From: Magnolia sinica
Taxonomy: Eukaryota > Streptophyta > Magnoliopsida > Magnoliales > Magnoliaceae
NCBI RefSeq assembly: GCF_029962835.1
Contig: NC_080574.1
Location: 22,170,001 to 22,234,000 of the forward strand
Length of the DNA: 64,000 nucleotides
Reading direction: 5' to 3'
How positions within the stretch are numbered: the first letter of the stretch is position 1; every line of letters starts with the position of its first letter. This document shows positions 28,965-62,018 of this stretch, piece after piece. Under the pieces are notes generated by a model. That model was not told the DNA's origin, searched no databases, and worked only from the letters and a program-made list of their open reading frames with translations. The position numbers and the translations under genes were made by a program.

Positions 28965-29681
28965 TTAAGTAAGCTCTCACCGTGGATTACAACCCCCGTT
29001 TACTTTATGCCGCCGAAGAACCGGGTCCCCTCCAAATCCACGATGCAAAACGGCCCCTTATATTTTACCCAAGAAATAACTCGAAGATAGAACCTGATGG
29101 ACAGAGCGGATTTCACGTAAACAACTGGTGGGCCCCACAGATCACACGTGTTTTACTCGCTACTAAACCAGGTGTTGCAGAGGACTCCGTTCCCATTTCC
29201 GCCAACTGTCGTGTCAGGCGGGCCACGTGGAGTCCTTTCCTGCGCTCTTTTCAAACATGCGGGTCAGACAGCGTGAGGAACCCGTGTAGGCGTGTGGAAT
29301 TGAAAAGGCAAATGCAAGACAGGCAAACAGAGGGAGAGGGAGAGGGAGAGAGGGAGAGAGAGAGATAGAGCAAAAACGGCGAAGCGGCTCGGCTCTCGCT
29401 CGTCGATGATTATTCCGTCCGTTTCAGATGGCGGATTCCACGAGCTTTCAGAGAAAAACCTGAAAACCCAACCCATCTTTTTTAAACCTTCCCAACCTCT
29501 TTTAAACAAATTCGGTAAGAAAATAATAATAAATAAAAGAAGAACCCGCAAACCAGCAGCCGATTTTTTTAAAAAAATACCTCCCAAATTGAAAAACGAA
29601 GAAGAAGAAGAAGTCTTCTCTTCTAGGGTTTGATCTGGTCCTGGGATTAGGATTTTGTGGTGGTGGGCCACCCATCCTGAC
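28965..29681 (+). promoter_or_regulatory. Putative promoter and 5' leader of the DUF630/DUF632 gene
   Basis: The stretch between the MITE and the start codon has a G-box core (cacgtg, 29224-29229), a gagagg/gaga purine tract (about 29331-29370) and a run of gaagaagaagaag (29598-29613). It also has a telo-box-type 'ctagggttt' (29622-29630) shortly before the ATG. These are common in plant leaders. The transcription start cannot be placed by eye. Confidence 0.4.
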
Positions 29682-32600: not shown

Positions 32601-33022
32601 AGCATCAAATACATGTCCAAAACTAGAAAAGAATACATAGTTTGTATACTCATGATTTTCTGAAAATTTCTAATATCATTTTACATTTTTTTCCTTTAAA
32701 AAAAATCTACTGTCCCATGGTGAATCATTACCGAATACCTTTTGGGGGGACTGCTGTGACTTTATTACAAGAGTTAACAAAAAGCCAATCCCTTTCTTGT
32801 GGTACTTTATAGCAGTTATCAAAGCCTCTCTTCCTATTGAGTATCCTTGTCTACTGTCTCTATTTCAAATGCTAGTTTTAGTTAGGATGAGGTTAGGAAG
32901 ACTCCATAGGGTGATCCTGTGGAGAGTAGAGGAAGAGCACAAAGTTCATTTGATGAAGTAATATAACATGTGCGTGTTCAAAAGAGGAAGACATGGTTAT
33001 GGTTGAGCTTCTTTTTGTTTTG

Positions 33023-33059
<37 letters not shown>

Positions 33060-36000: not shown

Positions 36001-39000
36001 TTTGAAGATCTGTAAATTTTCTAGGTTGGATCTTTAATTTTCCAATCTTTTATTGCTACCTTATCACCTTTAATGAAGCAAGTGAGGTAGTGACTCCTTG
36101 GCAGAAGTTGACTGTAAACCTGCTTTGACCATTGCTAATACTATCCAAATCTTGTATCACGTCGTGTTCCTTTTTGGTTTATGTGGTTCCTTCTCCTATC
36201 TTTTCTCTTAAAGTTTTTTTTTTTTTTTTAAATAATTTATACATGTATATAAAATAAAAGATTATTTATACTGCATAATTAATGATTTTTTGCTTGTATG
36301 TTGCATGATGCTAGAATCTGGGATGTTGGGAGATGTGCTACAGAAGTATTTTCACAGTGTGTTGAATTGTATCTTGGTCATTTACATTGTGATCTGGACG
36401 TCCCATCTGCCTGCTGGTGTGCAAGCAGATGGCTAAAAAGGGCAGTATCCAGAAAAGTTTTAGCATTGTTTTTCTTGGCTTTTGTTTATTTATTTATTTT
36501 TATATAAATAGGTAGGAGGAAGTAGGTGTGCAAGCAGATGGCTAAAAAGGGCAGTATTCAGAAAAGTTTTAGCATTGTTTTTCTTGGCTTTTGTTTATTT
36601 ATTTATTTTTATATAAATAGGTAGGAGGAAGTTGTGAGATTTGATCCCAAGACCTCTCTAAGAGAGGAGAACGTGTCTGACCAGTAGAGAACAATCTGCA
36701 GTCATTATCTTGACTATTATTTATAGTGTTATGTCAGTCAGTTTAGGGAAATTATTTTCAGATTTGTGGCATCTCAGCTTCAATTCATATCATGACTCTG
36801 TCCTGTCGAACTTGGGAATAGGCTTGGCCTTGATCTTGTTTTCCTTTAGCATGTTAAAGGTGGGTGTGGATGCCTTGATGCTCGGTTTTAGGTGATATTT
36901 GCATTATTTTATGTTATTTTGTTGGTGGGATTTTACATGTTTTGTGATACTACTCAGTTCCAGGCCAATTCTTGTTTAATTTGTTCAGGTGATTGTGCTA
37001 ATTTTAGGATGAAGAAAAGCTGCGGTTAATTTATGAAAAGAAGTGCAAGCAGCTGAAATATCTGGATGATAGAGGCGCAGAGTCTAACAAGATTGATGCT
37101 ACTCAGGCTTCAATAAGAAAGTTGCTCACAAAAATTAGCATCACTATCAAAGCCGTTGATGCTATATCAAGCAGGATACACAAATTAAGAGATGAAGAAC
37201 TGCAGCCACAAATGACTGAATTGATTCAAGGGTATGAATTTGAATCCTTCCATACCCCCTTTTTTACCTTTCTTTTTTTTGCCTGTCTTGACATATTCAC
37301 TGGACTAATACTTTGATATTGGTTATGATGCATTATTGATCTCAGCTGCTAGAGACTTAATAAGGATGACATGGTATTTTGATAATTTTGTTATTCTAAG
37401 ATATTGCAACACGCAATCTTATTCCCGTTCTTTACTTGATTCTACAATATTATGCCCAACTCAGCTAACTCTTAACACTAACTGTGCCTCTAAATTTGTT
37501 CGATTTGTTTTTCTTTACTATTTTCCGATATGCATAGTCATTAAAAGAGTGCATTAGTGGTTCTTGGCATTCTAAGAACTTCAGATGGGTGTTCAGCCAG
37601 TTTCATTTTCTTTTGCTATTTGTGGTGGAATTCAGAAACATGATAGAGAAAATGCCTTGGTCCGATGGACTTCAGCAAAAGCAGTTTGGACCAATAGCAT
37701 GCTGGGAGGAGAAAATGAATATTTCTTCTTAGTTCCTAGCTAACTGCGCTTGTACATATCATATGCCCATTCAAAATCAGATCACCCTGTATTTCATAAT
37801 GGCCACTTCTACCCATTTTTCTTCCTTCAATTTACCTCTACTGGCACACCCTATTCCACAATAGAAATAAGTATGCGATTCATCATCGTCTTAGCCGTCC
37901 TTCCGTCAATTTGGGGCGGATTCTAAATGGTAGGTTGGCAAAAGCTCTACAAGTACCACATCTCTCTTTTACCCAGTCTCTTGGAATCAGCCATTGCAGA
38001 GAGTCACACTGACATCATTTGCATGCCAGCTACTGCTCCCGCACAGTATTGACACCCAGCCCAAGTATTAACAAGCCCCAAATGGCGAGCTGCCAAAATA
38101 GGGGCTCCAGTAGTGGCTGCACAAAATAGCAAGGAACCCGCTGATACATGATTACAACACTGCTCAAATGCCAACAGACTCACACCATAGGTTGAACCTG
38201 AGCACAACTATTGCACGCTACCCACACTACAAAGGGAATTTGCTAACACCTCATTTTTTAGAGCACGCAGTTGCAGATCAGCCTGCTAAGTATACGACTC
38301 TTGATAGGATCAACCGAGTAGCATCCCTGTGTGACGATAGCACCATTGCCACACCCAACAACATGGGAAGTAACAGAGCAGGTCAATTTTTTACTGCAAG
38401 CAAAGAAGGAACCAACAAGGGTAGAACCCAAATGATTACATCTTCAATATGCGAAAGCACAGGAAGGTCCCATGAAGCACAAGTCCATGATGCACAGCCA
38501 CTACTTCAAGGTCCCACCTCATGGCACCCACAAGAAAGAGAGCAGGAGGTTAAAGAAGCATTTTCAGATAAGTTCCCCCCTGTATCATGTAATGAACATG
38601 GCTACCTGAGTTGGCAGTTGTTACCTAGCACACTAATGCACAACCATTGGACCAAAAGTGGAAAGTGAATGCTCAAGTAGTTGGGAAGAGCAACGGACTC
38701 GATGATACCTCTTTACCAAACACCATTCACATGCCAACACAATTATGCACCAGCCCAACACTCTACTTTAGCCTAACTGCTGCACATGATCCAGTGGGAA
38801 ATTTGCAAACAGTTAACCTCTCTAGCATGCAATGCCATACTAGCTGGTTGTGAACTGTGAGATATAATTACATGATTATGGGTCGATGATTCAATTTTTC
38901 ATTTCATTTCATGCAATTGCTGCTTAATTCAGTAGCAGGTTACAATCCACCATAGCTCAAAAAAGAAGAAGTTTACAGTCCATATTAATTCATATGATTT

Positions 39001-40007
39001 GTTTCAAGCCATTCACCTTGTTTCATACGTCATCTCTTAAATGGCTTGGGCTCATTCTTATGTGTATGTTTGAAGTCACATTTCTTCACTCAGTCATACT
39101 ATGCTTTTTGTGATTAGTTCACGCGAAGTAAATATTCCTTTATTCACTAGATGTTGTCAGTTAGAACTAATCCAAAATTTGGATTCCCCTCTCACATGAC
39201 ACTGATTTTATGTGCAGGTTGATAACAATGTGGAAGAACATGGTTAAGTGCCATCAAAAGCAGTTCCAGGCAATTCTAGAAACCAAAAGTCATAATCTCA
39301 AAGGGAAAACCGGTATTCAAAGAGATTCCAGCATGAGGGCTGCCATGGAGCTGGAGCAGGAGCTCCTAAATTGGTGTTCCCGTTTTAATGACTGGATCAG
39401 CACTCAAAAAGCATACATTGAAGCCCTGAATGGGTGGCTGCTGAGGTGGCTACTCCAGGAACCGGAAGAAACGGCAGATGGTATTGTACCTTTCTCCCCA
39501 AGCAGAGTTGGGGCTCCTTCCGTCTTTGTCATCTGCAATGATTGGTACCATGCAATGGAGAGAATATCAGAGGCCGAAGTGTCAAGGGCAATACACACAT
39601 TTGCTGCAAGAGTGCATATGTTGTGGGAAATGCAAGATGAGGAGCAGCGCCAGAAACTGAAGGCTGAGTATCTCTCCAAAGACATTGAGAAGAGGCTCAA
39701 ATCTCTGCACAAGGGGAGTGGAATGCAGGGGAATCGAAGTGCACTGGACGGTAGTGTTGTGTTGGTCTCTGAAAAGGATAGCATTGTTCTGCCCAATGAT
39801 GACCGCAAAATGGCATTGGATTCAATGAGAAAAAGGTTGGATGAAGAGAGAGAGAAGCACAAGGAAGCCGTTAAACGAGTACATGAGGTTGCTTCCGGTA
39901 GCTTAGACATGGGTTTTGTTCCAGTTTTTGAGGCCATGGAGAACTTCACTTGTGAGACACTGAAAGCTCACGAGGAAGTGAGAATCCAAAGCAGCGGAGG
40001 CACATAA
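29682..40007 (+). CDS. DUF630/DUF632 protein (NRG2/REL2-like), four coding exons
   Basis: Exons 29682-31044, 31139-31356, 37008-37231 and 39218-40007 join in frame to 864 codons plus stop, near the usual length of the family. The start is MGCGGSK, nine codons inside the longer ORF. Gly2 and Cys3 form an N-myristoylation/palmitoylation-type signal, so plasma-membrane or nuclear-envelope association is likely. Residues 1-60 (CRERKELIRAAADSRYALAA, HVAYFRTLSDIGHALHRF) are DUF630. A Ser/Pro-rich linker follows, with a proline run at 235-242 and WDFLNPF at 247-253. DUF632 runs from about 413: EVVKEIKDQFETAADCGKDL, LEKLYAWEKKLYKEVK, EKKCKQLKYLDDRGAES, TQASIRKLLTKI, DAISSRIHKLRDEELQPQ, MWKNMVKCHQKQFQAI. 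Family members include Arabidopsis NRG2 (nitrate signalling) and rice REL2 (leaf shape); which is orthologous is not known. Older annotations call such proteins 'bZIP', but no bZIP motif is visible. Confidence 0.93.
31139..31356 (+). other. Coding exon 2 of the DUF630/DUF632 gene
   Basis: Intron 1 is 94 bp (31045-31138), with donor g|gtgtga and acceptor caacag|. A second AG 13 bp downstream (ttgcag|) was rejected because it puts exon 2 out of frame with the only good donor. The chosen junction gives ILEAISCRMLDAVAPP, which fits the family pattern. Ends at |gtatgg, phase 0. Confidence 0.85.
33026..33055. repeat. (GT)n microsatellite
   Basis: Fifteen uninterrupted gt units in intron 2 of the DUF630/DUF632 gene. 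Confidence 0.9.
34695..35875. mobile_element. hAT-like non-autonomous element in intron 2, 1.18 kb
   Basis: Flanked by the exact 8-mer gatatgaa on both sides (34687-34694 and 35876-35883). Terminal repeats are cagtgttttcaatatc and, from the right, caatgttttccatatc. Sub-terminal DNA is full of 'atatc(a/g)' motifs in both orientations. No transposase ORF. The 8-bp duplication and CA(G/A)TG ends support hAT. Confidence 0.7.
36416..36633. repeat. 109-bp tandem duplication in intron 2
   Basis: Copies 36416-36524 and 36525-36633 differ by one internal base (tatccag versus tattcag) and the last base. The near identity suggests a young event. It lies 375 bp upstream of exon 3. Confidence 0.9.
37008..37231 (+). 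other. Coding exon 3 of the DUF630/DUF632 gene
   Basis: Acceptor tttag|gatgaag, donor g|gtatga. Encodes DEEKLRLIYEKKCKQLKYLD and the TQASIRKLLTKI, RIHKLRDEELQ blocks of DUF632. Ends in phase 2 and joins exon 4 through a split Gly codon. Confidence 0.9.
37232..39217 (+). other. Intron 3 of the DUF630/DUF632 gene
   Basis: Bounded by gtatga and tgtgcag. The middle (about 37860-38860) is visibly more CA-rich than the surrounding intron and contains a 166-codon open frame (38168-38668) with no recognisable family. It is possibly an inserted repeat or captured fragment. Confidence 0.8.
39218..40007 (+). other. Coding exon 4 and stop of the DUF630/DUF632 gene
   Basis: Acceptor tgtgcag|gttgat restores IQG-LITMWKNMVKCHQKQF across the junction. 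It encodes the C-terminal half of DUF632, including ELEQELLNWCSRFNDWISTQ and IFVICNDWYHAM-like segments (here VFVICNDWYHAMERIS). A charged helical region KMALDSMRKRLDEEREKHKE follows. Stop taa at 40005-40007. Confidence 0.92.
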
Positions 40008-45126: not shown

Positions 45127-45243
45127 TCATGTAGAGTGTGCACTGTGTGTTCGTGAGGCCCATATCCCAAAAACAAGAAACCAGAAGACAAACAAGATGG
45201 CCCAATAGCGTGCTGGCCCGTACTTGATTCTAGACAGCACAAT
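45127..45243 (-). other. Coding exon 3 and stop of the RINGv gene (38 codons)
   Basis: Acceptor cttgcag|att on the minus strand. It encodes IVLSRIKYGPARYWAILFVF and the rest of the third membrane span, then WASRTHSAHST and tga. This is the conserved C-terminus of the family, 12.9 kb from exon 2. Confidence 0.9.
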
Positions 45244-48200
45244 CTGCAAGTTTCACAAAGAGAAGTCATTATCTAAATCCTGACTCCAAATTTCAATCAC
45301 AAAATATTGAAACAGGTAGGCAGAAAACCAGTTGGATGGAATCAAACACAGCTAAAATCTGTAACATGCTGATACGAATGCTAGACAGAACACATGTATA
45401 TCTTCATATACATAACAGAAAACGCACTACTTTCAGGACAAAGTTTCCTCTTTTGCTCAGCCAACCAACTTCTAATTTCTACATCATGCATATTTGAACT
45501 TTCAGTTGAAAGCAGAATTTGCCATTTTATCAGACAGCCAAGATACCGGGTTATGAAAAAAGATCTCAAGATTAGTGAACTTGTATTTAGATGGAGATTC
45601 CATAAGAGATGTACCCTGTACTGTAAAAGATAAATTGATGTAAATCAAGGAGATAAAGGGATGTCATTGAAAGCAAAGAGTGAAAAAGCCAGGACTCAAT
45701 GGCCAAAAGCAGCCCCAAAACAGGTGTCAAATTAAGTCCAACAGCAGCTCTGATAGTGCATCCCCAGTAACTGCAGTGAAGACGGAACCATATGGCTGGT
45801 TTGGAAAGGAAGAAGGGCCGACTCCGACATCAACATCCAGCCTCGAAGGAGTGGTGTGCATAGCTTTGGAGGCTTTCAGTCGTCTCATTGCTCCATGTGT
45901 GGATCTGCTTAATTTTAATTAAAGAGTTGCATGCTGTCTAAATCATTGGCATTAGAAAAGAAATATGGGAGAAACTGGAGAAGTGAAGAGGAAATGCAGC
46001 AGGGTGGAAAGTGGGTATGGAGGGAATCGTCGGATGAAGCACCAGTTGTGAGGATCCACAAGTGTTGGAGGATTCACTACAGACTTCCAAGTTTAGGTTC
46101 GTTGTAACAGTGAAATCGGGGGCATCAGAAGAAAGGGTGGTCGAATGGCTATGGAAAATGTGAAGGGGTATCAGAAGAAGACATTGTCGTCAAAATCTTA
46201 CAGTTTGGCAGGATGCTCACCTCACTGGGAAGTAAAGAACACAAGGAAGTGGTTTTTACGGCCTGCACAGGATTCCAGGACAATATGATTGCTGAGATTC
46301 AAAAATGGGAGGCATGGTCTGTATTTGGGTGAGAAGAACATTGGTATCAGATATGAAATATACCTCTCAAGTTCTGGAGGGACGATATCTTCAAAGAAAT
46401 AGGAGCTTGCATTGGAGAAGTCATAGAGATTGATAACGAAACTGATGCAGGACAACTAACCACTTGCTCTAAAAGCTCGAACTAATAGAGTATGACGAAT
46501 CAATCCCTTTATCTCATATCCCAGGCCCCACATCCCATGGGTTAGTCCTCGGCCGAACCCCCCTCATAGGCCCCACATCACATGGGTTTTGCATCACACA
46601 AGCCACCCGCCTCACACGGGCTGCCCACCTCGAGTGTGCCCCCGCATCCTACAGGCCATCCCACTCGAGCCCGGTGCGAAAATGGCCCTGCATTAATCAC
46701 CCCCAGTGAGTCTTGAACATAAGACCTCTTGCTTTGATACCACTTTGATGCCAGACAACTAAGCAATTGCTATAAAAGCTCAAACTGATTGAGCGTGGTG
46801 AATCAATCCCTTCATCTCATAGTCCAGGCCCCCCATCCCATTGGTTAGGTCATCGTAACCCCCCCCCCCTCGTGGGTCCCACATCACGTGAGTTCCGCAT
46901 CACACAAGCCACCTGCCTCACACGGGCCACCCACCACGAGTGTGCCTCCACATCCCACAAGCCACCCACTCGAGCCAGGTGTGAAAATGCCCGTGTTAGA
47001 AATGGAGAACAGTGAGGAACTGCATTTTGCATGCCTAAAGATCAGAAAGAAAAAGGTAGCCCCATTTTTTAATCAGGTTTTTTTAAGGGTTGATGATGCA
47101 AAAATAGCTACCTCGGTGCTTTAGGAGATGGAGGTTCAAAATGCTGAAGAAATGAGAGGTCAGTTAATAGCGTCCAAGAATGGAGTTGAAGATAGAGCAC
47201 TTCTCGCATGCTTCTGCGAGGGTCCGGATCGAACTAAGGTGCATTGTTGAGCTGCAACTGGCTTTAATAAAGGTGATTCATTAGAATCGGTTCGGAGGTC
47301 GACCCATGGTGAAATAGGATCTCTTCTAGAGACGCGTGTTGAAAGATGGGAAGGTATTTGTACCTCAAATCGCACAACAACACGGCAGGGAATAGACACG
47401 TGGATCGATTGGGACAGCTGTAATTAATAAGGGGATTTCAAAAAATCTTCTTGAAGAAGGGCCGAATAGCAGAGGTTTTACTCGATCGCACATGGACGAC
47501 TTGTCACGTGTGTTTCTAAGTAGCCAAATCGCATGAGTGGAGGATAACTTAAGTGCCCACACGAGTGATATCTCAAAACCCACAGGTTTCGATTTCGAAG
47601 CACCTCAGCCATCTTGGGTAGATTCAGAGAAGCAGCTGGAGACAAAGAAATCATCCAGTACCGCCGTCATCCCGACTCAAGGTCAGGCAGCGGAGCGGGC
47701 CGTCCTTCGCTCGGAGCGACAGAAGGAAGAGATAGGGGCCAGAGCCCGGCCGATAGCATCATCCGCATCTAAAAGCATGCACGGGTGCTGCGAAGTGCAT
47801 TGCCCTCACTCTCATCTTCTTTTCCTGAAGCCCTAGTGCATTGAAGCGATTCAAATGGGGCGTGCTCACTGATTAGTGAAGAAGAAGCCCACACGACTGT
47901 TATTGGAGCAAGGGAAGCTCTAAAACAAAGAGGAATTGTGCAATTGGAGGTCTCAAAGGTCGGAGAGCATGTAGGCTCCAAAACCATCCCAAATGGTTAC
48001 AGATGCAGGTTTCAAGATTTCTCCCCTTTGTCGTTGAATAGTCATATATGAGGACCAAGGGCCAAAATAGGTATGGATCCCAATAGATGACTTTCGACTG
48101 ACTGACCAGTCATCTGGCGCGATGGTGGTATCAGAGGCAAAAGATTTACAGAGTCTAGTTTTAATGCCCTCTCTAGCGATCGATCAGCAATCATGAAATG

Positions 48201-51200
48201 CATTTACAACAGGAAACAGGTTGGTGGATCAGGCAGTAGCCCCTGCAATTCTAGAGTTAAATCAGTTGTAGAATAAAAGGTATGAAAAGAATTAAACTAG
48301 TAACTATGGAGGTCACTCATTTAGTGGGGGTAAGATTTGGGGACATGCTAGAGGATTACATAGCCTATCTTGAATTTGTTGAGGAAAGGGGAAGGCAATT
48401 AATTCCCCAACAGGTCCAGTTTAGTCTGAGAAATACGATGTGTTCGAAAGACTATAATTTAAATGGAGGAACTAAAACAGAGAATAGGAATGGTCGGCAT
48501 CAACCAGGTTCAGATAGTTATAAATGAAGATAATGACACAGAACATTAGGGGCATGGGTTGCTCACAAAAGTGGGGCCAAATCAAAGATATGTGGAAGAG
48601 ATTCAAAATCCAACTGGCAACATTTCAGAAAACTAAGATGAAAGTTACAAATCAGAGGTTGATAAATTCGGTGTGGTGGGGTAAGCAAAAAGATTGGGTA
48701 GCTGTGGACGCGACAGGTTCATCGGGAGGTATTTTGGAATTCAACAGTTTGGAATAAAGAGGACAGCTGGTCGGGAGACTATTCGGTATTAGTCGTGTTG
48801 AAAGAAATCACGTCGAGATTCACATGGATGTTCACAACAGTATATGGGTCGTGTAAATCAAAACTTCATGGTGAACTATGGAATGAACTGGACATGTGTC
48901 GAAACGGATGGGGTTTACCTTGGTGTTTGGGAGGGGATTTCAATGTGGTCACGTTCATTCACGAGAAGTTAAATGGGGTGGGGGGACTTCCCCAAGTATG
49001 AACAAAAATTCTGATTGGATCTTTTTGAAAAATGAGTTGGTGGAGCCGTCAAATGTACATGGTCAAATGGGCAAGCCGAGCTAGTCCAGGCTAGACAGAT
49101 TCCTCATCTCACCGGAATGGGTGGAGAAGTTTCCAATGATTCATCAGAGTGGTATGCCTAGACATTTTTCCGATCACTGCCCGATATTGCTTGAGGTAGA
49201 TGAGGAGAACTAGTGTCCATGCCCTTTCAGATTTGAGCTAGCTTGGTTAGAGGTATAAGGTTTTGCTGATAAGGTAGTGGAGTGGTGGGCATCTTTCTTG
49301 GTTCTTGAGGGTGCAGGCTTCTCTCTATTTCAAAAACTTAAATGGCTAAAGAAGAATATATGTGAGTAGAAAAAAGTGGTTTTGCAAGGTCAGGAAGAGG
49401 AAACGTCCATTCTACTTCAGGAAATGCATTGACGACAGGAGTATTGTCAGAGGAGGAGAGAACATGGCGGGAGGTTTATTGCACAAAATATAACACTAGA
49501 TTATAAAAGGAAGAGATTAAATGGCAACAAAGATCGAGGGCATTCTGGCTAAAAGGAGACAAAAATGCTAAGTTCTTTCATGATATTGCTAGTGCTAGAG
49601 CGCACACAAACAAGATCAAATTTCTAACGGAAGAGGGTGCAAGGGTCGAGGGGAAGGCTAATATCAAAGGTGCTATAGTGGATTTCTACAAAAATCTTTA
49701 ATCAAAAGATGCTTGGCATCGACCTCCTCTTGACAATTATATTTTGACTGTATATTGGTTGAAGCGGTGGAATCTTTGGAGAACCTTTCTCAAAGGAAGA
49801 AGTCAAGAAAGTAGTGGCAAAGTTGAGTGGTGATAAAGATTCGGGTCCATATGGTTTCCCGTTAGTGTTCTTTCAAAAATTTTGGGAGGTGGTGAGGGGA
49901 GACATGTTACGGTTCATAAATGATTTTTTATTTTTTTTTTTTCAAAAAAGGCTTTATAGGGGCGGAATTAGGGGCCACTTTCATAGCATTGATTTCCAAA
50001 AAGGAAGGAACCGAACGGCTAAAAGATTTTCGTCTTATTACCTTGTTAGGCGGCCCATACAAGATATTGGCAAAGGTTTTGGCTTCTAGATTTCGGATGG
50101 TGTTGGGGGATATAATCTCGAATTCTCAAGGGACTTTTGTGGACGAGAGACAGATTGTCGATAGGTCCTTACTAGCTAATGAACGTATTGAGAAGAAGGG
50201 ATCGGAGTCTGGTTTGCAAACTTGATATTGAAAAGGCATATGATCATATGGATTGGGCTTTTCTTGATTACATGTTGGGGAAGTTGGGATGTGGGGTCAA
50301 ATGGCGTGCTTGGATCCAAGCATTTGTTAGGTCAACTAAATTCTCAATCCTGGTTAATGGCTCGCCGAATGGATTCTTCTCAGCTTCTAAAGGGTTACAT
50401 CAAGGTGATCCATTATTTCCTCATCTATTTGTAAGGGTGATGGAAGCCCTTAGTAGAATGATAGAGAAAGGTAAAGAGATAGGCTTGGTGGAAGGATTTG
50501 GGGTGGACAGATCAAATTTTCAGATTTCGCATCTCCAATACGTGGATGATAAGCTTCTGTTCTATAAGGCAAATGTGTTCAAAGCGCAAAATCTTCGGTC
50601 GATTATAGAAAGCTTCGAAGCAGTCTCTAGTTTGAAGGTGAAATTAACAAAAGTGAGATTCTCAGAGTTGATCTTTATAAAGAAGAAATTCAAAATTGCG
50701 TCCATATTTGGGTGCAGGAAGGGGTCATTTCTGACCACTTACCTTGGGCTTCTGTTATGTATCGATAAACCGGCAAGATACATGTGGGACAAAGTAATCG
50801 AGTGATGTGAGAGGAAGATGTCCGCGTAGAAATTGAGATATCTATGGGCGGGAGAATGATTCTGCTTCAAGCGTCTATATCGAATCTTCCAGTTTAGTTT
50901 GTTTTATTCAAGTGCCCAAAGTTGGTATTAAATGTTTTGGAAAAGCGGGGGGATATTTTGTGGAAAGGATTGGAAGAGAAAGACAAGTTTCATCTTCTGA
51001 AGTGGGAAGAGGTGTGTAAACCACAGCATCAAGGAGGAGCAGGTTTAAGAAAATTAGAGGAGATGAACTTAGCATTGCTAGGAAAATAGGTGTGGAGGTT
51101 TGGGGTGGAGGGGGGAGCCAGACGGAGAGAGACAATGGGAAAGAAATATGGGGTACATGACTGTGGGTGGTGAACCAAATCTTCTTCTTTGTATTAAGCC

Positions 51201-54200
51201 TCTTATTTATGGAAGTCGGTGATGTCCTTAAAACAAGGTTTGGAAAGGGATAGGTTTTGAATTGGGGAACGGAAAAAATATTCATTTTTTAGAGGATAGG
51301 TGGATAGGAGAAAGTAAGTTGAGAGTTCGTTTTCCAAGGCTAGTAACGGGGTTAGCTAAGGAAACAAACATAAAGGTTAGTAGCTGCTTCTCATTGAAGC
51401 AAACACAAGGAACCTCGGTGATGAAGAAATTCAAGAATTAAGAAGGCTTCTTCATGTGTTGGAAAAGGTTTCTCCAGTCGCTTCAAGTACAGATTCACTA
51501 AGATGGTTAAAAGATAAATTGAGTAAATTTTCAGTTAAATCATTGTATCAGGTTCTAAGTGAGGCTAGGGAAAATGAAGGGATATATTTGACGACATATG
51601 TATGGCAATATGGTGCTCCGTTGAAGGTAGCGGCTTTCAGATAGCTTGTCAGGAGGAACAAGGTGCTAACAATCGATAATTTCTGCAAGAGGAATATGGT
51701 TCTGTCGAATGTATGCCTTCTTTGTTTCAAAGATGCGGAAATAGTGAATCACCTATTCCTTCATTGTTCTTTCACAAGGGAGGTGCGGGATCTTTTCTTC
51801 CAGCTTTTCAGGGTGCTCTCGGGTTCAATAGATAATTTCCTTCTATCATGGCACGGAGGGGGTATAGGGAAATCAGGGAAAAGGATATGGAGGCTGAGTA
51901 GTTTAGCAAGTTTGTGGGCATTATGGCTAGAAATAAATGACCGGTGTTTCAAGAACAAGAAGGGGAAAGCGATATATGTTTTTAGGAGGGCTAAAACCTT
52001 TGTTATAGAATGGGTGTCAGTATCGGATAGTTTATTTCAATTTTCATTGGGTTGGCACTTGGCAGTAGTGTTGTATCCTTTTGTTCATTCTATTCTTTTG
52101 TACATATAGGTTGCGGCCTTTTAATGAAATTATATCTTTTTAAAAAAAGAAACTGGAGAAGGGACAAATAGAGCCTAACATCTCTCTCTAGTAACACCTT
52201 ACAACATGAGAAATGCTCCGGTACTTAAATACTCTCGCTTAAGCTAGAGCATAGATATTAAACATGCCCAGCTTGCCTAAAGTATCATGAATTGATGATG
52301 ACCGGAAGCAACTCGAATTTAAATATGGCCATAGCTTTTTTTATCATTTTTTTTTACTTGTAGCAGCTCGAATTTAAATATGGCCATAGCTTTTTTTATC
52401 ATTTTTTTTTAGCAATAAACAAAATTGTATTTAAAATTTTTTATTTTTTATTTTTATTTTTAAAAAAAGCCCTAAGCTCCAACATACATGGATGGCAGAT
52501 TAAAAGCTTCTAAGGCCAAAGATACCACTACATCATTAGCTTCTTTACACACATAAATATTAAAAGAAATGTCTAACTTAGATGTAAAAAAGTATAATCT
52601 CATTGAGAATGTAATGCAAGGTCCAGGGTTCCTCCTCATCTCTAACCCAACGCAGTAAGCAGGGGAGATGGCCTTCAACCATTGCCACAAGTTTTTCTCA
52701 TGATTTTGGCAATCTAACATTGGATGATCATGAAATGGTGGAACATGGTTCATATAGCCAACCCCAATTAATTGGAATAAGGCTTAGATAATGATGACTG
52801 GTAGCTTTTAGCTAACATGTTTTCATTTCATATACTTTGATCTTTTCATGGAAGACCTTTACAACATGGATAGTACCTTGATTACCACAATGAAGGGGAA
52901 TAGGATTTCTGATGGAGACATCAGAGGACCTACTCAGGTGTATCAGAGACAGATGACCACCTAAATTAGTATAACTTTCTTTGTGGATGGGAGACGAGTC
53001 CAAATGGGGCCTGTCGGGCCATTTTGAAAACCCCACATGCATTGGACGTGCATCAAGAAGACCCCACCTTAGGATGATGCATATGGGCTGCTTGGGAGAT
53101 CATTTTTGTCATAGGATTTCTATTTTTTGTCGATCCGACCATTAGATCTTGTCGATCAAGCCATCAGGCCACCAAATCTTTTAGATCTGGGCCCCTTGAA
53201 CTCTGATCTTACTTTCTTTATGTTTTTTTTCTAAATTATTTTTAGGATTTATATGATAATTGAGATTGATAATAAATGTTTTAGTTTTCTTATTTTGGAC
53301 GATGGGCCACTTCACTTAAGTGAGTGGCATAGTTGTAATTATGCTGAATTTTTAATAATAAAAGCACAGGGGGGTGGAGATCTAACCCCATTGGATTTTG
53401 TGTGGGGAAAAAAAAAAAAGCTCTTTCTTCTCCCATCTTCATGCAATTTGAAGATACTTCCACGCGATTTGGAAGGAAAATTGGTGCGAGGCTAATCTTC
53501 ATCAACGGAGGTGCGAGGTCTCCATTTATCCCTACACCATCTTCTCTTTTCTTCCCCATCTAGGTATTTTCTTCAGGTTCTTCATTCTCCCCATCACAGA
53601 TCTTCGTCTTCTCCCAAACTCAACCTTCCCATACCCATCCACAATCCAAACCTTAACTGACCTAAACCCATCCTCCCACACCACATGTGACCGTACGGCT
53701 ACACGTGTGAATCCCACTTGCCCCTTGTACTTTCCCACCATCATTATATCAATCAAAACCCCTTTCTTCCATCCCCAAAACCCTAACCCTAAACCTAAAA
53801 TTCCTAATTTTCCTACTTTCCTAAATTACCTAAACCTTAATTTTCACCCTAGGTCGTATTAGGTTTCCTATTTTGAAATAAACTATACCCTATACTAATT
53901 GGATGTCTCTATATCCATTAGATCCTAGTTTCTTTTTATTTAATGATCTTGTGTTACAATGTTGGTAGCTTAGGTCAGGATTATGCATGATTTTTATGAT
54001 ATTTGTGATGAATATAGCGATGTTTGTGTTTTTTTATTAAATATTTTAATTCGGTTATTTGATCTCACATGTTACTTAGTTCATGCATCGGTCCTGCATC
54101 ACATAATAGTTTTGTGCAAACGCAAAAGGAAGTTGTCCACAAGAAAAGTGAGTTTGAGCCATAAGTGACGCAGTGCTTGATGAGCATATCAAATATTGGC

Positions 54201-57200
54201 AAAACGTATAGGTGGAAAGCACTGACGCATCTCGTAGAACAAAAAGAATGAGCGAAGCTCTTTGTCCGAATGCTTGCTAAATTGAGACACATAATTTTTT
54301 CTAAGTATTATAGGAGATTGAGGGCGACATATTGTTCCCATCTTTTACTTTTGTCAATTTCGCACATATTAGCACATATTAGCATGTACAATTCTAAACA
54401 TTTGATTTTTTTTTTTTTAAAAAAAATCCTTTATTTGGAGTTTTTTAATATATTTTTTATGCCTTCTAAATTAGATTTGCACATTCTTCTAATGCCACGC
54501 GAAAAATATTACGTGTTATTTGTTGGCCAATGCCATGACATTTATATGTCATGGGAAGAATGTTACAAAGAGATAAATGGATTTAGTCATAACAAATACA
54601 AGTCACTCAACTCTTTATTCAACTCTTTACTTGAAGCTCAAGATGCCTTTATGGTCTTCATGAAATAGAAAGAAAGTAAAGTTAGGGCTTGCTTGATTTT
54701 CCAAATTCAGGGTAAATGCCCTATAAATAGCCAATTATTACAATTTCACCTGTTTGAAAATACGAAGGTATTCCTGCTTCAAAAAATGGTCCAAAATGAC
54801 TGGCATAAATTTGTGGACCCCACCGTCATGTATATGACATATCCACGTCGTCCATCCATTTTACCAGAACATTTTAAGGCATGAGCCGAAAAATGAGGAA
54901 AATCGAACATTCAAGTGGCCCACACCAAAGTAAACGGTGGCCCTAAGAAGTTGTTTACGATGAGTGTTCGATTCCATTTTTACCGTGGTGTGGACCACTT
55001 GAACTTTGAATTTGCCTCATTTTTTGGCTTATGCCCTAAATTTAGTTGGCATGACGGATGGATGGTGTGGATAATCCACATATATCACGGTGGGTCAAAA
55101 ATGACTAGCATAAATTTATGGACCCCACCGTCATGTATATGACATATCCGCGTTGTCCATCTGTTTTACCAGAACAATTTGAGGCATGAGCCGAAAAATG
55201 AGGAAAATCCAACATTCAAGTGGCCCACACCAAAGTAAACGGTGGCCCTAAGAAGTTGTTAACAGTGAGGGTTCGATTCCATTTTTACTGAGGTGTGGTC
55301 CACTTGAACTTTGAATCTGCCTCATTTTTTGGCTTATGCCCTAAATTCAGTTGGCATGACGGATGGATGGTGTGGATAATCCACATACATCACGGTGGGC
55401 CCCCCATATATTTGGCAACATCCTCGAATTTAACGTTGAAAAAAGTGGGAGTCAAATCAACGTAGTGAACGATGCGGTAATTACAAAGGAAATAATCACT
55501 GCCCATTTCCACTGCATTTACATTTACTTAAGAAAATCAAACATGCCCTTAGTGATCCTCAACCAAGTGCTTCCCAATCAAGTGGAAATCAAGTGGAAAG
55601 GCAGTAAGTAAATATTACACCTTATTCATCGGTCGTTGTTATGGAATTTACGGATCATGGGAGGAGTGTCTCACACAAGTTCATGGATTTTCTAGTCATT
55701 GGTACAAATCATTCAACATTATAGAAGAAGCACACGATGACTTAATGTAATTTGGTGCAAATAGGAAGGAATGATTGTAATAAGTAATTATTTTGTAATT
55801 CACGTGTACTTTTCTATAAAATAGTGGCGCAATTTGCATGGCGTGTGAATTTGGATCATAGATATATACATTGGAATAGATAGGTTTCATCATCTTGAAC
55901 ATATGGGGTTTTGCTTCAGGTATAAAATTAGTGGACCCACTTTTGTGGCCCGCCTAGGCTCAGTATTACCTCATTTTTACCCAAAGTTTATATTTTGAAG
56001 AGCTTATTACAATGATTATCTATAATGTGACAATTGTACACCGTTTTGGGGTATTGTCGATGATTTACTTAATCAAATTCAGGTTTTTATGAATATAATA
56101 CAGAAATTCCAATGCATTCCAAATCTAGGCTGCCAAACACAAATTTTGAATTCCATAGTATTCCAATTACGGGCTGCCAAACACTAATGAGGATTCCAAA
56201 TCACTTTGATTCCAGTGTATTTGTTTTTTGGACTTCAATGCATTACAAACACAAGCTACCAAATGACCCATTAGACAACTCATAAACAAGCGCAGGTGGC
56301 CAATTCAGTCTCCAGCGAGTAGAATTCATTGTCGTCCCAACCACCTCCAATCTGCCTCCTCGATCTCAGGTCCGAGTAACGTGACATCACAACCCAACTA
56401 TTTATAAGAGAACCACAGACAACAGATTGGAAGGAAGAGATGGAACATGCATAACAAAGGCAAAACACATGGAGTAAATTGATACACCCCCTTCCTAGGG
56501 GCATTGGAGAAGGATCCATCAACTAATCTTGTGCCACTAGCGATAGGGGAATAGGAAACAAAACCTTCTCTCTTATCTGTCATATGATCAAAATCTCCTA
56601 AATCTATAATCCAGGATGGAAGGATGGAACGGAGAAGCATGACCATGATTGGGGTTCCTAATGTCCATGGATGACCCATAGATTGAATGAGAAGAGTTGT
56701 ATGATGCTTTGAGGGTACCCAGTAGTTACAAGTCGTAACTTGGTCTCTTAGGTCTTATGTCAAATTCCCAAAATTAGGAGGAATCTCCTCCTGAGCAGCA
56801 ATTGTACTAGTGGAGAAGCGGCGACATTCTCCGGTTTCGGAAATAGGTGAGGATACAACTCCTAGAAATATTCCTTGACATGCCATCTCTTTCCACAATG
56901 AATACACTTTAACTAGTCTCTTTCAGCTGAAGACATTTATACTCGAGCTAATCCTCTTCCAAACCTGCTTGACTTGGGAGATCTTGAATTTGACATCAGG
57001 GCAAATCTCAACATGCGCAAACAAACCATTCTGACCAACTGTTGTTACCACACTCCTTCAATGTAATGAAACATAGATTATAGCTATGGCAAAGATTCTC
57101 TCCCGAGAACTTGCAGCTTTGCAATTCGAAGTCTGAGCGAAGTCCAGCAAAGAACTCAAAGATCCTATGCTGATCTGTTTCCTTCTTTACATCTTCAGGA

Positions 57201-60200
57201 GTGCAGGCAAGAGGCCTGCAGAGCCTGCTGATGTGATCTGGAGGTCCTGTGGCACCTACCGGTTGGTCTGGTGGGCTTTGAGGCACCTGCTGATGTCACT
57301 GGTGGTCCCTGTGAGGCCTGTTGATGTCACTGGTGGGCCTAGCAGGGCTCCTTGATGGCAATAGTAGTCCCAGTGGAGCCTGATGGTTGGATAAATAGGA
57401 ATGTGGGGCCTGTTGATGTGATCAGTTGGACCCATGAGGGCCACCGATTTGGATTGATGAACCCTACAGGTCTACCAGTTGGATCAGTGAGCCATATGGA
57501 ACCTGCTGGTTTGATCGGTGGGCCCTACGGGGCCTGTCAGCTATGCCGATGGATTGAGTTCCGTCGGAAACACTAGGTGGCCCTATAGCGCCATCTGGTG
57601 ACATATGTTGGCTCTACAAGGTCAGCAAAAAAGAGGAAAAAAGCAAAGCGAAGGGAAGAGAAGAGGGGGATAATAGATCTAGTTTTATACCAGATCTTCC
57701 TCCGATGCCATGTTCAAATCATTAGCATTAGAAAAGAAATATTAGAGAAATTGGAGAAGGAAAATAGAGGGCTTCACTTTTCTTTCTATTAACATTTTAT
57801 TTATAACAGAGCATCAACTCTCTTCTTGTAGTTTGATTTGCTTAGCTTGATGATATGAAACCAAAACTCCCTTCAATTTTATTTTATTTTTTTAAAAGGA
57901 AAAAGAAGAAAGAAAGAAATTTTTATCACGGAATATGCAAGACAAGTACAATTAACCTTATAATTACTTATAGTTGAAAACACAAGCTGACTGAATACCT
58001 TGAACACTATGAAAGCAGAAAAGGGAATGTAGAATTTTATGTGAAGTACTCAAGAGTGAAAATTGAATTTTGTAAGTATATACAAGATGTCCATGATGCA
58101 TATTCTTGGATAAGAGTAAAGAGGGAAGAATGTGCAGTCAACTTACAAAGCGAAGGAAGATCACAACTGTCAAAGCGCATATACCTCCAAGAAGAATATG
58201 AAGACCACTTCTTGCAGTCCTCTGCCCATCAATGAGAAACTTGTTAGGAAAACGACTTTATGCAAAACATTGATAAAATGCATTAGGATTGGATGCAATG
58301 TTAAAAGCTCATTTTAGACACAATATGATAGATTGCTATGGAAAGAACTCCGTGATATTATTATTATTATTTCGGCTAAAAAAGATAATATTATATATAT
58401 TTTTCTATAGATGACCAAAGACTTCATTAGAGAAAATGAAAAAAAGAAAGATATCTGAATTCTCAAAGCAATAGTCTTCACCAGACATGCTTACTGTACT
58501 GAAATATGTTGTTCTCACAGGTAGCAATAATAAAAACCATTCAACCGTATGTGTTTTTTTTTTTTTTTTCTTCCTTATAGCACTAACATGTCCTGTAAAA
58601 GTAACTACAAAAAAAGTGAAAATTAGACATGCAGGAACACATCTTCAAATTAGGTAATATTGGAGATAAATAAGAAAAATCATGATTATGTTAACAAAGC
58701 ACTGGGAAAGCCCAAATGCTAGATGACACCATCTTCAACATTGCCAAGTTTGCCATGGCTCCACCATTCCAAGTTCAGGTATTCTCAAACACAAACAATT
58801 GTGCCTTCAGTTTCCAAGACCACCAATTATCAGAGAAAGAAGAAAGATACAAATAAAAATAAATATGCTTTTGAATAAAAGCGATCTATCAGTTCAACAC
58901 ATGGTTTTAAGACTCAGACCAACTCAGTTGAGTAGAGTGTACGAGTCAGGGGGTCACTCTTAGAGTCGGGCAGTTGTCCCTCTTTTCTCAAAATTTAAGG
59001 AATATATATATATAATCTTTAAAATGATACCGGGGCTAATTTTAAGATAAAATCTTGTTAATGTGTGACCTAAAAATCCAATAAATATCAATTCCATGTG
59101 TGGAAATGGTGAATAAGTGTCACATTGATTTTATTTTATTTTTTTAAATAATTTTTAACTTAATAAATAATAAATTTGTGGGAGGCTCCTAAATCATCTG
59201 GACAGACTCCAATAACCTAGATCTAGGTTAGAAGGCAAAGATGGGCAAAAAATAGAAGAAAATAGCAAAAAAAAAAAAAAATGAATCAGGCAAGAGTTGC
59301 AAAGGACTAATTCGGACTGACTCGCCCTGACTTCCCCGAGTCTCAAGCCACTCATCTGAGTCGGACCAAGTCTGCCAAGTCTACCCACCCTGCAAGACTC
59401 GTGTTATTGACTCGACTAGGGTCCAATGAGTCCTAGTCGACTCGAGCTCATATTGGACTAGGACAAGTCTTCAAAGCATGATTCCCATGTTCTTATTGTT
59501 TGCTGCTTTGACTTTAGGCATAGCAAGAGTTTCAGGATGATTTTTTTTTTTTTGCATGCATAATGTGAAGAGATTGTAGAAGAGAAAAATGAGTACCATC
59601 AATCAATTGCAGAGACAGGAAATTATAATAAGTTACATTTTGGATGGAAAAAGAGGAAGAGCAAGCAGAAGAGACCAAAATGCCCATAGCATCAGCAGAA
59701 AATGGAAACAAGATCACAAAAAAAAAAAAAAGAATACCTCAAGAAACAGAATACAGAAAAAGCATTCAGCTGTCTCTGATAATCTTCTCAAGAGAACGAA
59801 AATATCACTTGGCTTAAGCATAAGAAAATCAAATTTGTCAAACCTAGGAGCTCCCATGAAGAAGTCATCCATATGATCCTAGTTATGATATAAGGACTGA
59901 CAATATAATTTAATGTTACTTTATCTCAATGAATTGATAAAAGGGCACCACTAGGAGTGGAGACTGCAGCTTAATTAAACCCAGTATATGGGTGTTTTGT
60001 GCTTAGCAGCTTGCCTAGCAACTGCCTCCCATGACCATACATTGCTTGCTGACCCTTTATGGCACGTATATAATGGTTGGGCTGGGGGTCAATACTGGGA
60101 GGGACTATGTAGGCCTCTGAGTGGTGTCAATGTGAGCCCCTGCCTTGGCCGGTCTTCAAACAGCCTGGGTAAAAGAGGAAGGATGATATTTGGTGCCAAG

Positions 60201-62018
60201 TGTCAACTGTTGCAAACTCCTACCAGCCTACCATTTAAAAGCCAATAAAAAAATGTTGGAAGAAAGGCTTAGATGATGATGATGATGACTTTATCTCATG
60301 AAACAATGATTAGTGTCAATATGCTTAACTCTTGCATGGAATGGAACAAAGGGTACCAGCAATTATACACTCCCAGTAATATAGCATGGCCATTGGATCA
60401 TAGGAGTAGACTCCAATCTCACTTAACAGCAATTCAATTCATGTTAGCTGGCAAGAATGATGCACTAAACATCCAACTTCTAAACCCTACATAAATAAGA
60501 ATTCTCCTAAAGCTATACCACATATAACGCAAGTAGTATTTGTAAAATTTTGCCCCCACAATTCCGAAATTCAAAGGACATGTTAAGACCTTTTAATTAA
60601 AGTAAGGGGTATTTTAGGAAATTGAAAATGTGGCTGCTGTCCAACAGACGGCTCAGATTTCAATGGCAAAAACCAGCCAATGGCTTATCTTTTACCCGCT
60701 GCAAGCCTCTCCACGGAACTGACTTTCTCTCCCTTTGTGATTTTTTCTCTCCCTAATTTGGAAAACACTTGCATGCCTTCCATAAGGATACAGGGGTGTT
60801 ACTTTCTTTCACTGACATGACGGAACAACTTTTAATTATATCAAGATTACACCTCAAAATCATAGCATGGCAAGACAGAGAACTCCAATCCATATCATTT
60901 TTTCTTCTTTTCGAATGGCAAAGATTTATTAACAAGAGGGGGGAAAAGGCTGAGATGGTGAGGAATCATCCCACAACAAATGGGGAGAATTCAAACCACA
61001 AGAAACATTGAAAGAATCCCAAATGGAACCCAAGAACAATTTCAGACCATTAGGTCAAATCTATATAATCTTTTTACAAATCTAAAAATAGCACCAAATC
61101 AAGGCATACCTTTCCAACACGAGGAGCAATCAGCCATGCTAGAGTAACTGTAAGCAACCCAGTAGCAACAAGTATCCCAGTACTTTCCACAGCCCATTTG
61201 GTTGTAGGATTTTCAGTGGGGACAGGAACTTCAACAGGGATATTAGAAGACTGATCCACAACTCCTTGTGAAACTGAAACCGAAACTGCTGCGGAATTAT
61301 TGTGTGGATTAAACCACAAAGAAATCTCACTAAGCCTCTGTCTTCGAATAGCAGCAACAGCATCAGGATCAACACCTGAATCCGTCTGCACGTGTGTGGA
61401 AATAAGTTCCCCAGCGACAGTCCTTTCCCTTAACGCTTCATAATCCTTAAGAGAAACCATGACCTTTCTGAAGTCAGCAGTTCTGACATTTTTTGCAACA
61501 CTTCCGCAAATCTCACAGATGGTAGATCCATGATTAATGAACCACTTCAATGCACAAGCATAATGTGCAACAGCTAGATCACTTTTGCATGAACACCCGA
61601 GATTAATAAGTGTGTCTTGATGGTGACAAGATCCTGCTTCTATGTCAGTTCTGCAAATGAAAACCTCCCCTTCAGGGCTTACAAACTCCATAAACCCAGA
61701 CCTCCTTCCCCAACTCTTAGTATCTGCAACATCATTTTGAACACCTTCCTGGGAAACTTTGTCAGTTAATTGCTCATCCTCGTTGATCTTCACGACTTCC
61801 TCTGACGGAGGGGTTATATTCAAGAAGTCTAAGGCAGCATCCCCCCTTCTGTCAGATTCTGCACATTGGCACACACGGCAAAGTGCCAAATTCCCATCCT
61901 TTTCAGTACCTTGATATGTTGTACAGCACATCTCTATATTTTCGCCCATAGTAACTGTCGCTCCATCATTGATTCCACCATCATTGGAGTGCAGCTTATC
62001 TTCCTCGTGGCCCATCAT
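45127..62018 (-). CDS. RINGv (RING-CH) zinc-finger membrane protein, three coding exons
   Basis: Exons on the minus strand: 62018-61110, 58221-58147 and 45243-45127, all joined in phase 0, giving 366 residues. The start is the first ATG of the MMGHEED stretch. The ORF extends upstream only to a GTG, and a ttttgaag| just upstream could be an acceptor for a non-coding first exon. RING-CH ligands are C47, C50, C142, C144, H152, C155, C168 and C171 (C4HC3). The long C50-C142 spacer (AESDRRGDAALDFLNITPP; GEVFICRTDIEAGSCHH) is typical of this plant subfamily as I remember it. Three hydrophobic spans lie at about 279-298, 308-328 and 340-356, with the conserved APRVGK, SGLHILLGGICALTVVIF and YGPARYWAILFVFWFLVFG blocks. 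It is presumably an E3 ubiquitin ligase of endomembranes. Substrate unknown. Confidence 0.9.
46060..47124 (+). pseudogene. LINE ORF1 (gag-like, DUF4283 type), broken and interrupted
   Basis: Fragments in several frames read KFRFVVTVKSGASEERVVEW, then FWRDDIFKEIGACIGEVIEI with DNET. After the TRIM insertion comes MENSEELHFACLKI with a basic RKKKVAPF stretch. These fit the RNA-binding ORF1 of plant L1 elements. Multiple stops, so not functional. Confidence 0.55.
46443..46998 (-). mobile_element. TRIM (miniature LTR retrotransposon) inside LINE ORF1
   Basis: Two direct LTRs, 46443-46692 and 46746-46998, flank a 53-bp interior. On the minus strand the upstream LTR ends ..ggcatca. After aag comes tggtatcaaagc (46742-46731), a near match to the initiator-Met-tRNA primer-binding site used by plant LTR elements (tggtatcagagc). 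A purine stretch (actgggggtga) precedes the other LTR, which starts tgcagggcc. The flanks gaaac (46438-46442) and gaaat (46999-47003) are a 5-bp target duplication with one mismatch. The insertion splits ORF1 exactly after the IDNET block. Confidence 0.72.
48524..49215 (+). pseudogene. LINE endonuclease domain (APE/EEP type), broken
   Basis: Reads MTQNIRGMGCSQKW at the start (the 'WNvRGlg' block), WCLGGDFNVV in the middle (GDFN catalytic-type motif), and SRLDRFLISPEWVE to FSDHCPILLEV at the end (SDHcP motif). In L1 elements this domain nicks the target DNA. Frames change at least twice and stops intervene. Confidence 0.75.
49558..50805 (+). pseudogene. LINE reverse transcriptase, broken
   Basis: Successive blocks in order: WLKGDKNAKFFHDIASARAH, DSGPYGFPLVFFQKFW, KKEGTERLKDFRLITLLGG, VCKLDIEKAYDHMDWAFLDY, SKGLHQGDPLFPHLF and LQYVDD (active-site YVDD). 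A frameshift at the T run near 49930 separates the second and third blocks. The open segment from about 50179 to 50805 is the longest intact stretch. Confidence 0.85.
51456..52109 (+). pseudogene. LINE C-terminal zf-RVT region, broken
   Basis: Reads FSVKSLYQVLSE, VWQYGAPLKVAAFR then a stop where Trp is usual, followed by CLLCFKDAEIVNHLFLHCSF (Cys/His zinc-binding pattern of plant zf-RVT) and LSSLASLWALWLEINDRCF. The LINE ends about 40 bp after this frame. Confidence 0.8.
52307..52416. repeat. 55-bp tandem duplication
   Basis: 'ctcgaatttaaatatggcca' plus a following T-rich stretch occurs twice at a 55-bp interval, nearly identical. Confidence 0.8.
52440..52797. repeat. LINE RNase H-side fragment (minus) and SINE/RTE-like tail (plus)
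   Basis: The minus-strand frame 52472-52753 ends KLDISFNIYVCKEANDVVVS and LALEAF, resembling the last part of an RNase H domain (REANxVADxLA), followed by an A/T-rich tail at 52440. On the plus strand 52740-52797 reads agccaaccccaattaattgg then aataaggcttagataatgatga, resembling the 3' tail of plant RTE/SINE repeats. Both are fragments. Confidence 0.35.
53150..54200. repeat. LTR- or leader-like retroelement fragment with telomere-like motif
   Basis: T/C-rich leader-like DNA with 'aaaccctaaccctaaacct' at about 53778-53796, followed by AT-rich sequence. It resembles leader regions of plant LTR elements, but no ends were identified. No credible ORF. Confidence 0.25.
54459..54668 (+). CDS. Viroplasmin-like (caulimovirus VI/RNase H1-N-type) small ORF
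   Basis: 69 residues from the ATG at 54459; a longer frame begins at 54270 but is low-complexity before this. PREKYYVLFVGQCHDIYMSW, EECYKEINGFS and NKYKSLNS follow the domain's landmarks. No RNase H catalytic part follows. Same fold as the ORF at 9602-9973, in a different repeat context. It may be a remnant rather than a gene. Confidence 0.4.
   Translation: MPSKLDLHILLMPREKYYVLFVGQCHDIYMSWEECYKEINGFSHNKYKSLNSLFNSLLEAQDAFMVFMK
54790..55401. repeat. Two tandem fold-back copies, 305-bp period
   Basis: Copies at 54790-55094 and 55095-55401 are near-identical. Each is itself a fold-back: 'ccccaccgtcatgtatatg' at the left against 'catatatcacggtggg' at the right, and 'gtggcccacaccaaagtaaac' against 'ttaccgtggtgtggaccac'. 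The whole element, not an arm, has been duplicated head to tail. Confidence 0.85.
55610..55750 (+). pseudogene. Viroplasmin-like domain fragment
   Basis: 46 codons without a start: KYYTLFIGRCYGIYGSWEEC, LTQVHGFSSHWYKSFN, IIEEAHDDLM, stop. It lies about 1 kb downstream of the related ORF at 54459, on the same strand, with the fold-back tandem between. Probably a second, diverged copy. Confidence 0.4.
56090..56278. repeat. MITE-like repeat
   Basis: Repeated 'attccaatgcattccaaat' and 'ctgccaaacac' motifs at three places, bordering the cut end of the Copia fragment. The motif style ('...tttggtagc...' on the minus strand) is that of plant MITE termini. The ends are not defined. Confidence 0.3.
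56275..57808 (-). mobile_element. Truncated Copia retrotransposon (LTR, gag, protease, pre-integrase)
   Basis: In minus orientation the LTR (57808-57711) starts tgtt and ends aaca. It is followed directly by tggcatcggagg (57710-57699), a degraded initiator-Met-tRNA primer-binding site. Next comes gag (DVKKETDQHRIFEFFAGLRS, near 57196-57030), then the protease/zinc-finger region (SWIIDLGDFDHMTDKREGF, LVDGSF) and a pre-integrase-like piece (SDLRSRRQIGGGWDDNEFYS). Pol beyond this is missing. Frames are broken. Confidence 0.7.
57711..57808 (-). repeat. 98-bp Copia LTR
   Basis: TGTT...AACA ends in plus orientation. It is homologous along its length to the LINE-split solo LTR at 45935-52206. Confidence 0.6.
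58147..58221 (-). other. Coding exon 2 of the RINGv gene (25 codons)
   Basis: Acceptor gggcag|agg and donor ttt|gtaagt on the minus strand. It encodes RTARSGLHILLGGICALTVV then IFLRF, the second membrane span, in phase with both neighbours. Confidence 0.9.
58900..59481. repeat. MITE-like repeat in RINGv intron 1
   Basis: The left end catggttttaagactcag and the right end (read inward) catgctttgaagacttg are an inverted pair. The sub-terminal regions are rich in gactcg-type motifs in both orientations. No ORF and no clear target duplication. Confidence 0.45.
60000..60288 (+). repeat. SINE/RTE-like repeat ending in (ATG)n
   Basis: Ends aaaggcttagatgatgatg with the microsatellite at 60272-60288, the same tail style as 52770-52797. 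The upstream limit is uncertain. Confidence 0.4.
61110..62018 (-). other. Coding exon 1 of the RINGv gene
   Basis: 303 codons, including the whole RING-CH domain and the first membrane span. It ends LIAPRVGK| at donor gtatgc (61109 downward). Reading through the donor gives only a non-conserved 11-residue tail before a stop. Confidence 0.88.

Follow-up and report, generated by a model that had tools for sequence, protein, structure and literature searches.

The DNA analysed here, called the window below, is a stretch of 64,000 nucleotides (nt) from Magnolia sinica (NCBI RefSeq assembly GCF_029962835.1, contig NC_080574.1, positions 22,170,001 to 22,234,000 of the forward strand), and our subject is a gene on its minus strand that very probably encodes a RINGv membrane protein from three exons. 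An earlier sequence-only reading of this DNA had described such a gene, with a transposon-filled last intron of 12.9 kb and a remote last exon in phase. The exon coordinates and lengths, the splice sites, the phase-0 junctions and the sum of 366 residues that it gave are all present in the sequence. In positions of the window, the parts of the gene are as follows.

61110-62018, minus strand: exon 1, 909 nt (303 codons), with the start codon, the RINGv domain with its C4HC3 ligands and the first membrane span.
58222-61109, minus strand: intron 1, 2,888 nt (size from the coordinates), GT-AG, phase 0.
58147-58221, minus strand: exon 2, 75 nt (25 codons), with the second membrane span.
45244-58146, minus strand: intron 2, 12,903 nt, GT-AG, phase 0, containing transposon remains.
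45127-45243, minus strand: exon 3, 117 nt (38 codons and the stop), with the third membrane span and the C-terminus.

The donors read AAAG/GTATGC for intron 1 and CTTT/GTAAGT for intron 2, and the acceptors read GATGGGCAG/AGG before exon 2 and AACTTGCAG/ATT before exon 3. All three exon lengths are multiples of three, and therefore both junctions fall in phase 0. When joined, the exons encode 366 residues followed by a stop, and no in-frame stop lies inside any of them. Reading across the exon 1 donor into intron 1 adds exactly 11 residues (VCLDLVLFLDL) before a stop, which is the false tail that had been noticed on exon 1, and reading across the exon 2 donor into intron 2 gives V, S and a stop.

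The product matches the Pfam profile RINGv (PF12906) with 24.7 bits, where the cut-off is 21.6 (expectation value, E, 2.5e-5; residues 135-171). The eight ligands of the C4HC3 type are complete (C47, C50, C142, C144, H152, C155, C168 and C171), and their spacing is C-x2-C-x91-C-x1-C-x7-H-x2-C-x12-C-x2-C. According to PMC5240574, which counts 25 plant RING-v (C4HC3) proteins in Arabidopsis, 23 in rice and 44 in Brassica rapa, the x1 spacing between ligands 3 and 4 and the x7 spacing between ligands 4 and 5 distinguish RING-v, and both spacings are found in the product. Further features shared with the plant proteins described there are the order of the ligands, an Arg after ligand 1, an Ala before ligand 5, a Trp at the fourth position after ligand 6 and the 12 residues between ligands 6 and 7 (PMC5240574). 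Behind the RING, a hydropathy scan (19-residue windows, threshold >1.3) gives three peaks, at residues ~275-302, 305-338 and 337-362, the third of which depends on exon 3. A RING-CH domain followed by membrane spans is also the arrangement in animal MARCH proteins; however, these mostly have two spans and the Magnolia product has three, and the likeness is one of architecture (PMC4897099).

Run on exon 1 alone, single-sequence AlphaFold2 gave a poor model (mean predicted local distance difference test score, pLDDT, 35.9), which passed a pLDDT of 50 only beyond residue 279, within a helix at 271-301 that corresponds to the first span. Among the five PDB matches to the product up to E 10, the best was ORF K3 (E 0.047), and five peptide strings of the product had no occurrence in the literature text searched. 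By family precedent, the product is predicted to act as an E3 ubiquitin ligase, bound to a cell membrane and with its RINGv domain facing the cytosol; the role, the side and the membrane would all follow from that precedent.

The transposons that the sequence-only reading had placed between exons 2 and 3 are confirmed by transposon-type domains that Pfam locates in intron 2. Roughly half of this intron is a single insertion of 6,164 bp, a long interspersed nuclear element (LINE) bounded as follows.

45984-52147, plus strand (antisense to the gene): L1-type LINE, identified by its Pfam domains, with ends set from the target-site duplication.
45970-45983, plus strand: left copy of the target-site duplication, a direct repeat of 14 bp.
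52148-52161, plus strand: right copy of the target-site duplication, 14 bp, preceded by a short A run.

Its domains lie in L1 order, namely DUF4283 at 46180-46452 (E 2e-7), the reverse transcriptase RVT_1 at 50197-50667 (E 1e-16) and zf-RVT at 51528-51785 (E 4e-17). The reverse transcriptase, zf-RVT and the target-site duplication together place the element among the L1-type LINEs, and its reading frames are broken. A tandem duplication of ~306 bp (about 80%) occupies 46443-47016 within the LINE, beside the DUF4283 part.

Around the LINE are the traces of what is probably an older Copia-like element, which runs in the direction of the gene and would hold the LINE inside its 3′ long terminal repeat (LTR). 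These traces, together with the other repeats of the intron, are listed below.

57711-57820, minus strand (sense to the gene): probable 5′ LTR end of the old Copia-like element, with the outer limit set by eye.
45935-45983, minus strand: probable matching 3′ LTR end, the remainder of which would continue past the LINE from 52162 on.
54504-54644, plus strand: RNase H1 N-terminal (Cauli_VI) domain found by Pfam, a transposon-type remnant.
55610-55735, plus strand: second RNase H1 N-terminal (Cauli_VI) remnant, also from Pfam.
54788-55399, no strand assigned: a 305-bp unit duplicated in tandem (93%); other parts of the window hold diverged, partial copies of it.

The segment 45940-45983 is 91% identical to 57716-57759 over 44 bp. 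With the LINE taken out, the local alignment of the two LTR ends scores 135, whereas 200 plain shuffles of the bases reached at most 84; ~110 bp of this alignment are convincing by eye, and farther out it is AT-rich and possibly noise. A peptide resembling a Copia protease, recognised by its motif, lies near 56610 on the gene strand, on which the sole Pfam match within intron 2 up to E 1 is Pol_BBD (E 0.037, below the cut-off). Neither the start of the LTR nor a target-site duplication of the Copia-like element itself was found. Elsewhere in the window, an open frame at 9602-9973 on the minus strand carries the same Cauli_VI RNase H1 N-terminal domain as the remnants of intron 2 (E 3e-15) and has a hydrophobic tail.

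The arrangement suggests an order of events. A Copia-like LTR element would probably have inserted first into intron 2 in the sense orientation, and the 6.2-kb LINE would then have inserted antisense within its 3′ LTR, with other repeats adding to the stack. Growth of intron 2 by such nested insertion left the splice sites intact, and exons 1 to 3 would be spliced across both introns to give a RINGv protein with three spans.

For relatives of the gene, we searched the genome of Magnolia sinica itself (1,838,573,281 bases in 127 contigs, in which the window is C2:22170001-22234000) by a translated search that scores best candidates only. The full product gave 15 matches up to E 10 among these candidates, and three of them are the exons of the gene itself; exon 2 matches its own genomic place with E 1.7e-7, and the exon 3 peptide has a single genomic place at E <= 0.001. 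The other 12 are confined to query residues 74-187 and therefore have nothing to say about the C-terminus. RING frames were printed by script at seven of these 12 RINGv-region loci, and 9.9 kb around five of the 12 were inspected by eye, without a tree, which gave no help on the C-terminus. Since the best candidates included no recent paralogue or retrocopy (a natural cDNA) of the gene, it is apparently single-copy in the nuclear genome.

Several observations weigh against the gene model as drawn above. The alignment to PF12906 spans only profile positions 11-47 of 47, and the loop between ligands 2 and 3 (residues 50-142) has 91 residues, which exceeds the 11-77 of all 44 B. rapa domains, whose common pattern is given as C-x2-C-x11-77-C-x1-C-x7-H-x2-C-x12-30-C-x2-C (PMC5240574). 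Whole-protein scans of viral contigs and of genome contigs gave no relative, and neither these scans nor the best own-genome candidates included a homologue of the C-terminus. In addition, 34 of the 639 phase-0 AGs in intron 2, that of exon 3 included, open onto a hydrophobic frame (limits of at least 22 residues and hydropathy 1.3 with any acceptor; neighbouring AGs are often in one frame). The acceptor of exon 3 has just 7 pyrimidines among the 13 positions before AG; of the 19 rivals that lie neither in the LINE nor in the 305-bp duplication, 7 equal or beat this count. In codon usage, scored with a small training set on which exon 2 is lower still, exon 3 stands mid-range of 187 rivals, a fraction of 0.47 scoring as high or higher, and both of its non-coding frames outscore its coding frame. 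The length of the loop does not define membership of the type, since the range comes from one species and the same source allows the spacing to vary, and the product fits the RING-v type despite it. Exon 3, in turn, cannot be singled out ab initio from sequence alone. That splice sites and hydropathy by themselves raise it above chance was not confirmed: 33 other phase-0 AGs of intron 2 also open onto a hydrophobic stretch; the parts of the earlier interpretation that stood are the RINGv gene on the minus strand, the transposon-filled last intron and the in-phase position of the remote exon. A weak match of exon 3 to PIG-P (E 0.034, far below the cut-off) was set aside as a chance similarity of hydrophobic stretches.

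These counts bear directly on one alternative, in which the true last exon lies elsewhere in intron 2 or past it and the frame at 45127-45243 is open by chance. In its favour are the 33 competing AGs and the result of a rough consensus score for acceptors, by which 17 of 691 phase-0 AGs, exon 3 counted, do as well as the exon 3 acceptor or better (the set runs from exon 2 to past exon 3 and takes frames that close within 200 codons). However, of the 33, the LINE accounts for 12 and the 305-bp duplication for 2 (14 together), with 19 elsewhere, and among the 34 passing sites a GCAG end is limited to exon 3 and one LINE site. When acceptor score, length and hydropathy are required jointly, six of the 691 AGs remain; of the five besides exon 3, the LINE holds two and the 305-bp duplication one, and the other two lie past exon 3. 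Moreover, exon 3 sits clear of the transposon stack by ~0.7 kb, as would be expected of an old exon. To our knowledge, none of the other candidates for the last exon resembles the C-terminal end of the family. In plant membrane proteins of the RINGv type, the last part is typically an aromatic third span to which exon 3 would be comparable, and our confidence in exon 3 derives from this presumed likeness together with the GCAG acceptor, the exact phase and the position outside the stack. We consider it unlikely that exon 3 is a chance frame.

A second alternative accepts the exons and supposes that the transposon stack broke the gene, so that transcripts end in intron 2 and yield a protein of 330 residues that ends in ...FLRFVS and lacks the third span. 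The nested elements, one of them probably sense with an LTR able to end transcripts, are what could be expected under this explanation. Yet the insertions look old, given the broken frames of the LINE and a 9% difference between the presumed LTR ends in the 44 bp compared, and exons 1 to 3 are nevertheless all still open; if exon 3 were dead, one would expect it to decay. A broken gene is thus very unlikely. It is likewise hardly probable that both forms are made under regulation, polyadenylation within intron 2 giving two spans and splicing giving three, although the stop that follows V and S when intron 2 is retained and the probable sense LTR inside that intron would both suit such an arrangement. 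Fainter still is the prospect that this LTR supplies the regulated transcript end by which the plant switches between the two forms of the RINGv protein; if true, such an LTR-driven switch would alter the topology of the C-terminus between two and three spans.

The explanation that we favour, and hold to be very likely, is that of an ordinary nuclear gene of Magnolia sinica for a RINGv membrane protein of 366 residues with three C-terminal spans, the three exons being spliced across introns of 2.9 and 12.9 kb. We infer that the 58147/45243 junction is used in transcripts.

Long introns have been reported for magnoliids and Magnoliaceae (PMC8626473, PMC7917104). The introns of Magnolia biondii are described there with a mean of ~2.8 kb and a median of 525 bp, which the authors attribute to some exceptionally long introns. 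In spruce, the large intronic content is traced to few but long introns (PMC4108047). With such very long introns on record for Magnoliaceae, an intron of 12.9 kb can be regarded as ordinary genome architecture, and the present gene resembles the cases described for magnoliids and Chloranthales in its plant group and in the transposons inside its intron (PMC8626473, PMC7917104). In the Chloranthus paper the largest contribution is ascribed to LTR elements, whereas intron 2 holds a LINE along with the probable decayed Copia-like element (PMC8626473).

The window also contains a gene with DUF630 and DUF632 domains in several exons on the plus strand (29655-40007; PF04783 with E 5e-25 and PF04782 in pieces). 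A gap of ~5.6 kb separates its domain pieces at 31219-31359 and 37008-37232, which is an upper bound for one intron, and inside this gap, at 36416-36632, a 109-bp unit occurs twice in tandem (99%). Rfam and tRNA scans of the 64-kb window were empty.

For annotation, a small last exon could easily be missed when the last intron has been stretched by transposons. A gene model that stops at exon 1 would lose two membrane spans, and one that stops at exon 2 would lose one. The published annotation of M. sinica drew on Iso-Seq transcripts, protein evidence, PASA, AUGUSTUS, Exonerate and MAKER2 (PMC10999834). Given the Iso-Seq, the protein evidence and MAKER2, a truncated model, which the sequence-only reading had thought probable, is a risk rather than a certainty. 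The default limit for the expected intron in MAKER2 is 10 kb, which could split a gene with an intron of 12.9 kb. The pipeline used for Chloranthus extended a protein match by 2 kb in both directions (PMC8626473), and one of that type would therefore miss exon 3 unless exon 3 were matched by itself. Existing knowledge of the RINGv family and of intron growth is left unchanged by this gene, which may serve as a small example of how an intron stretched by transposons displaces a short last exon.

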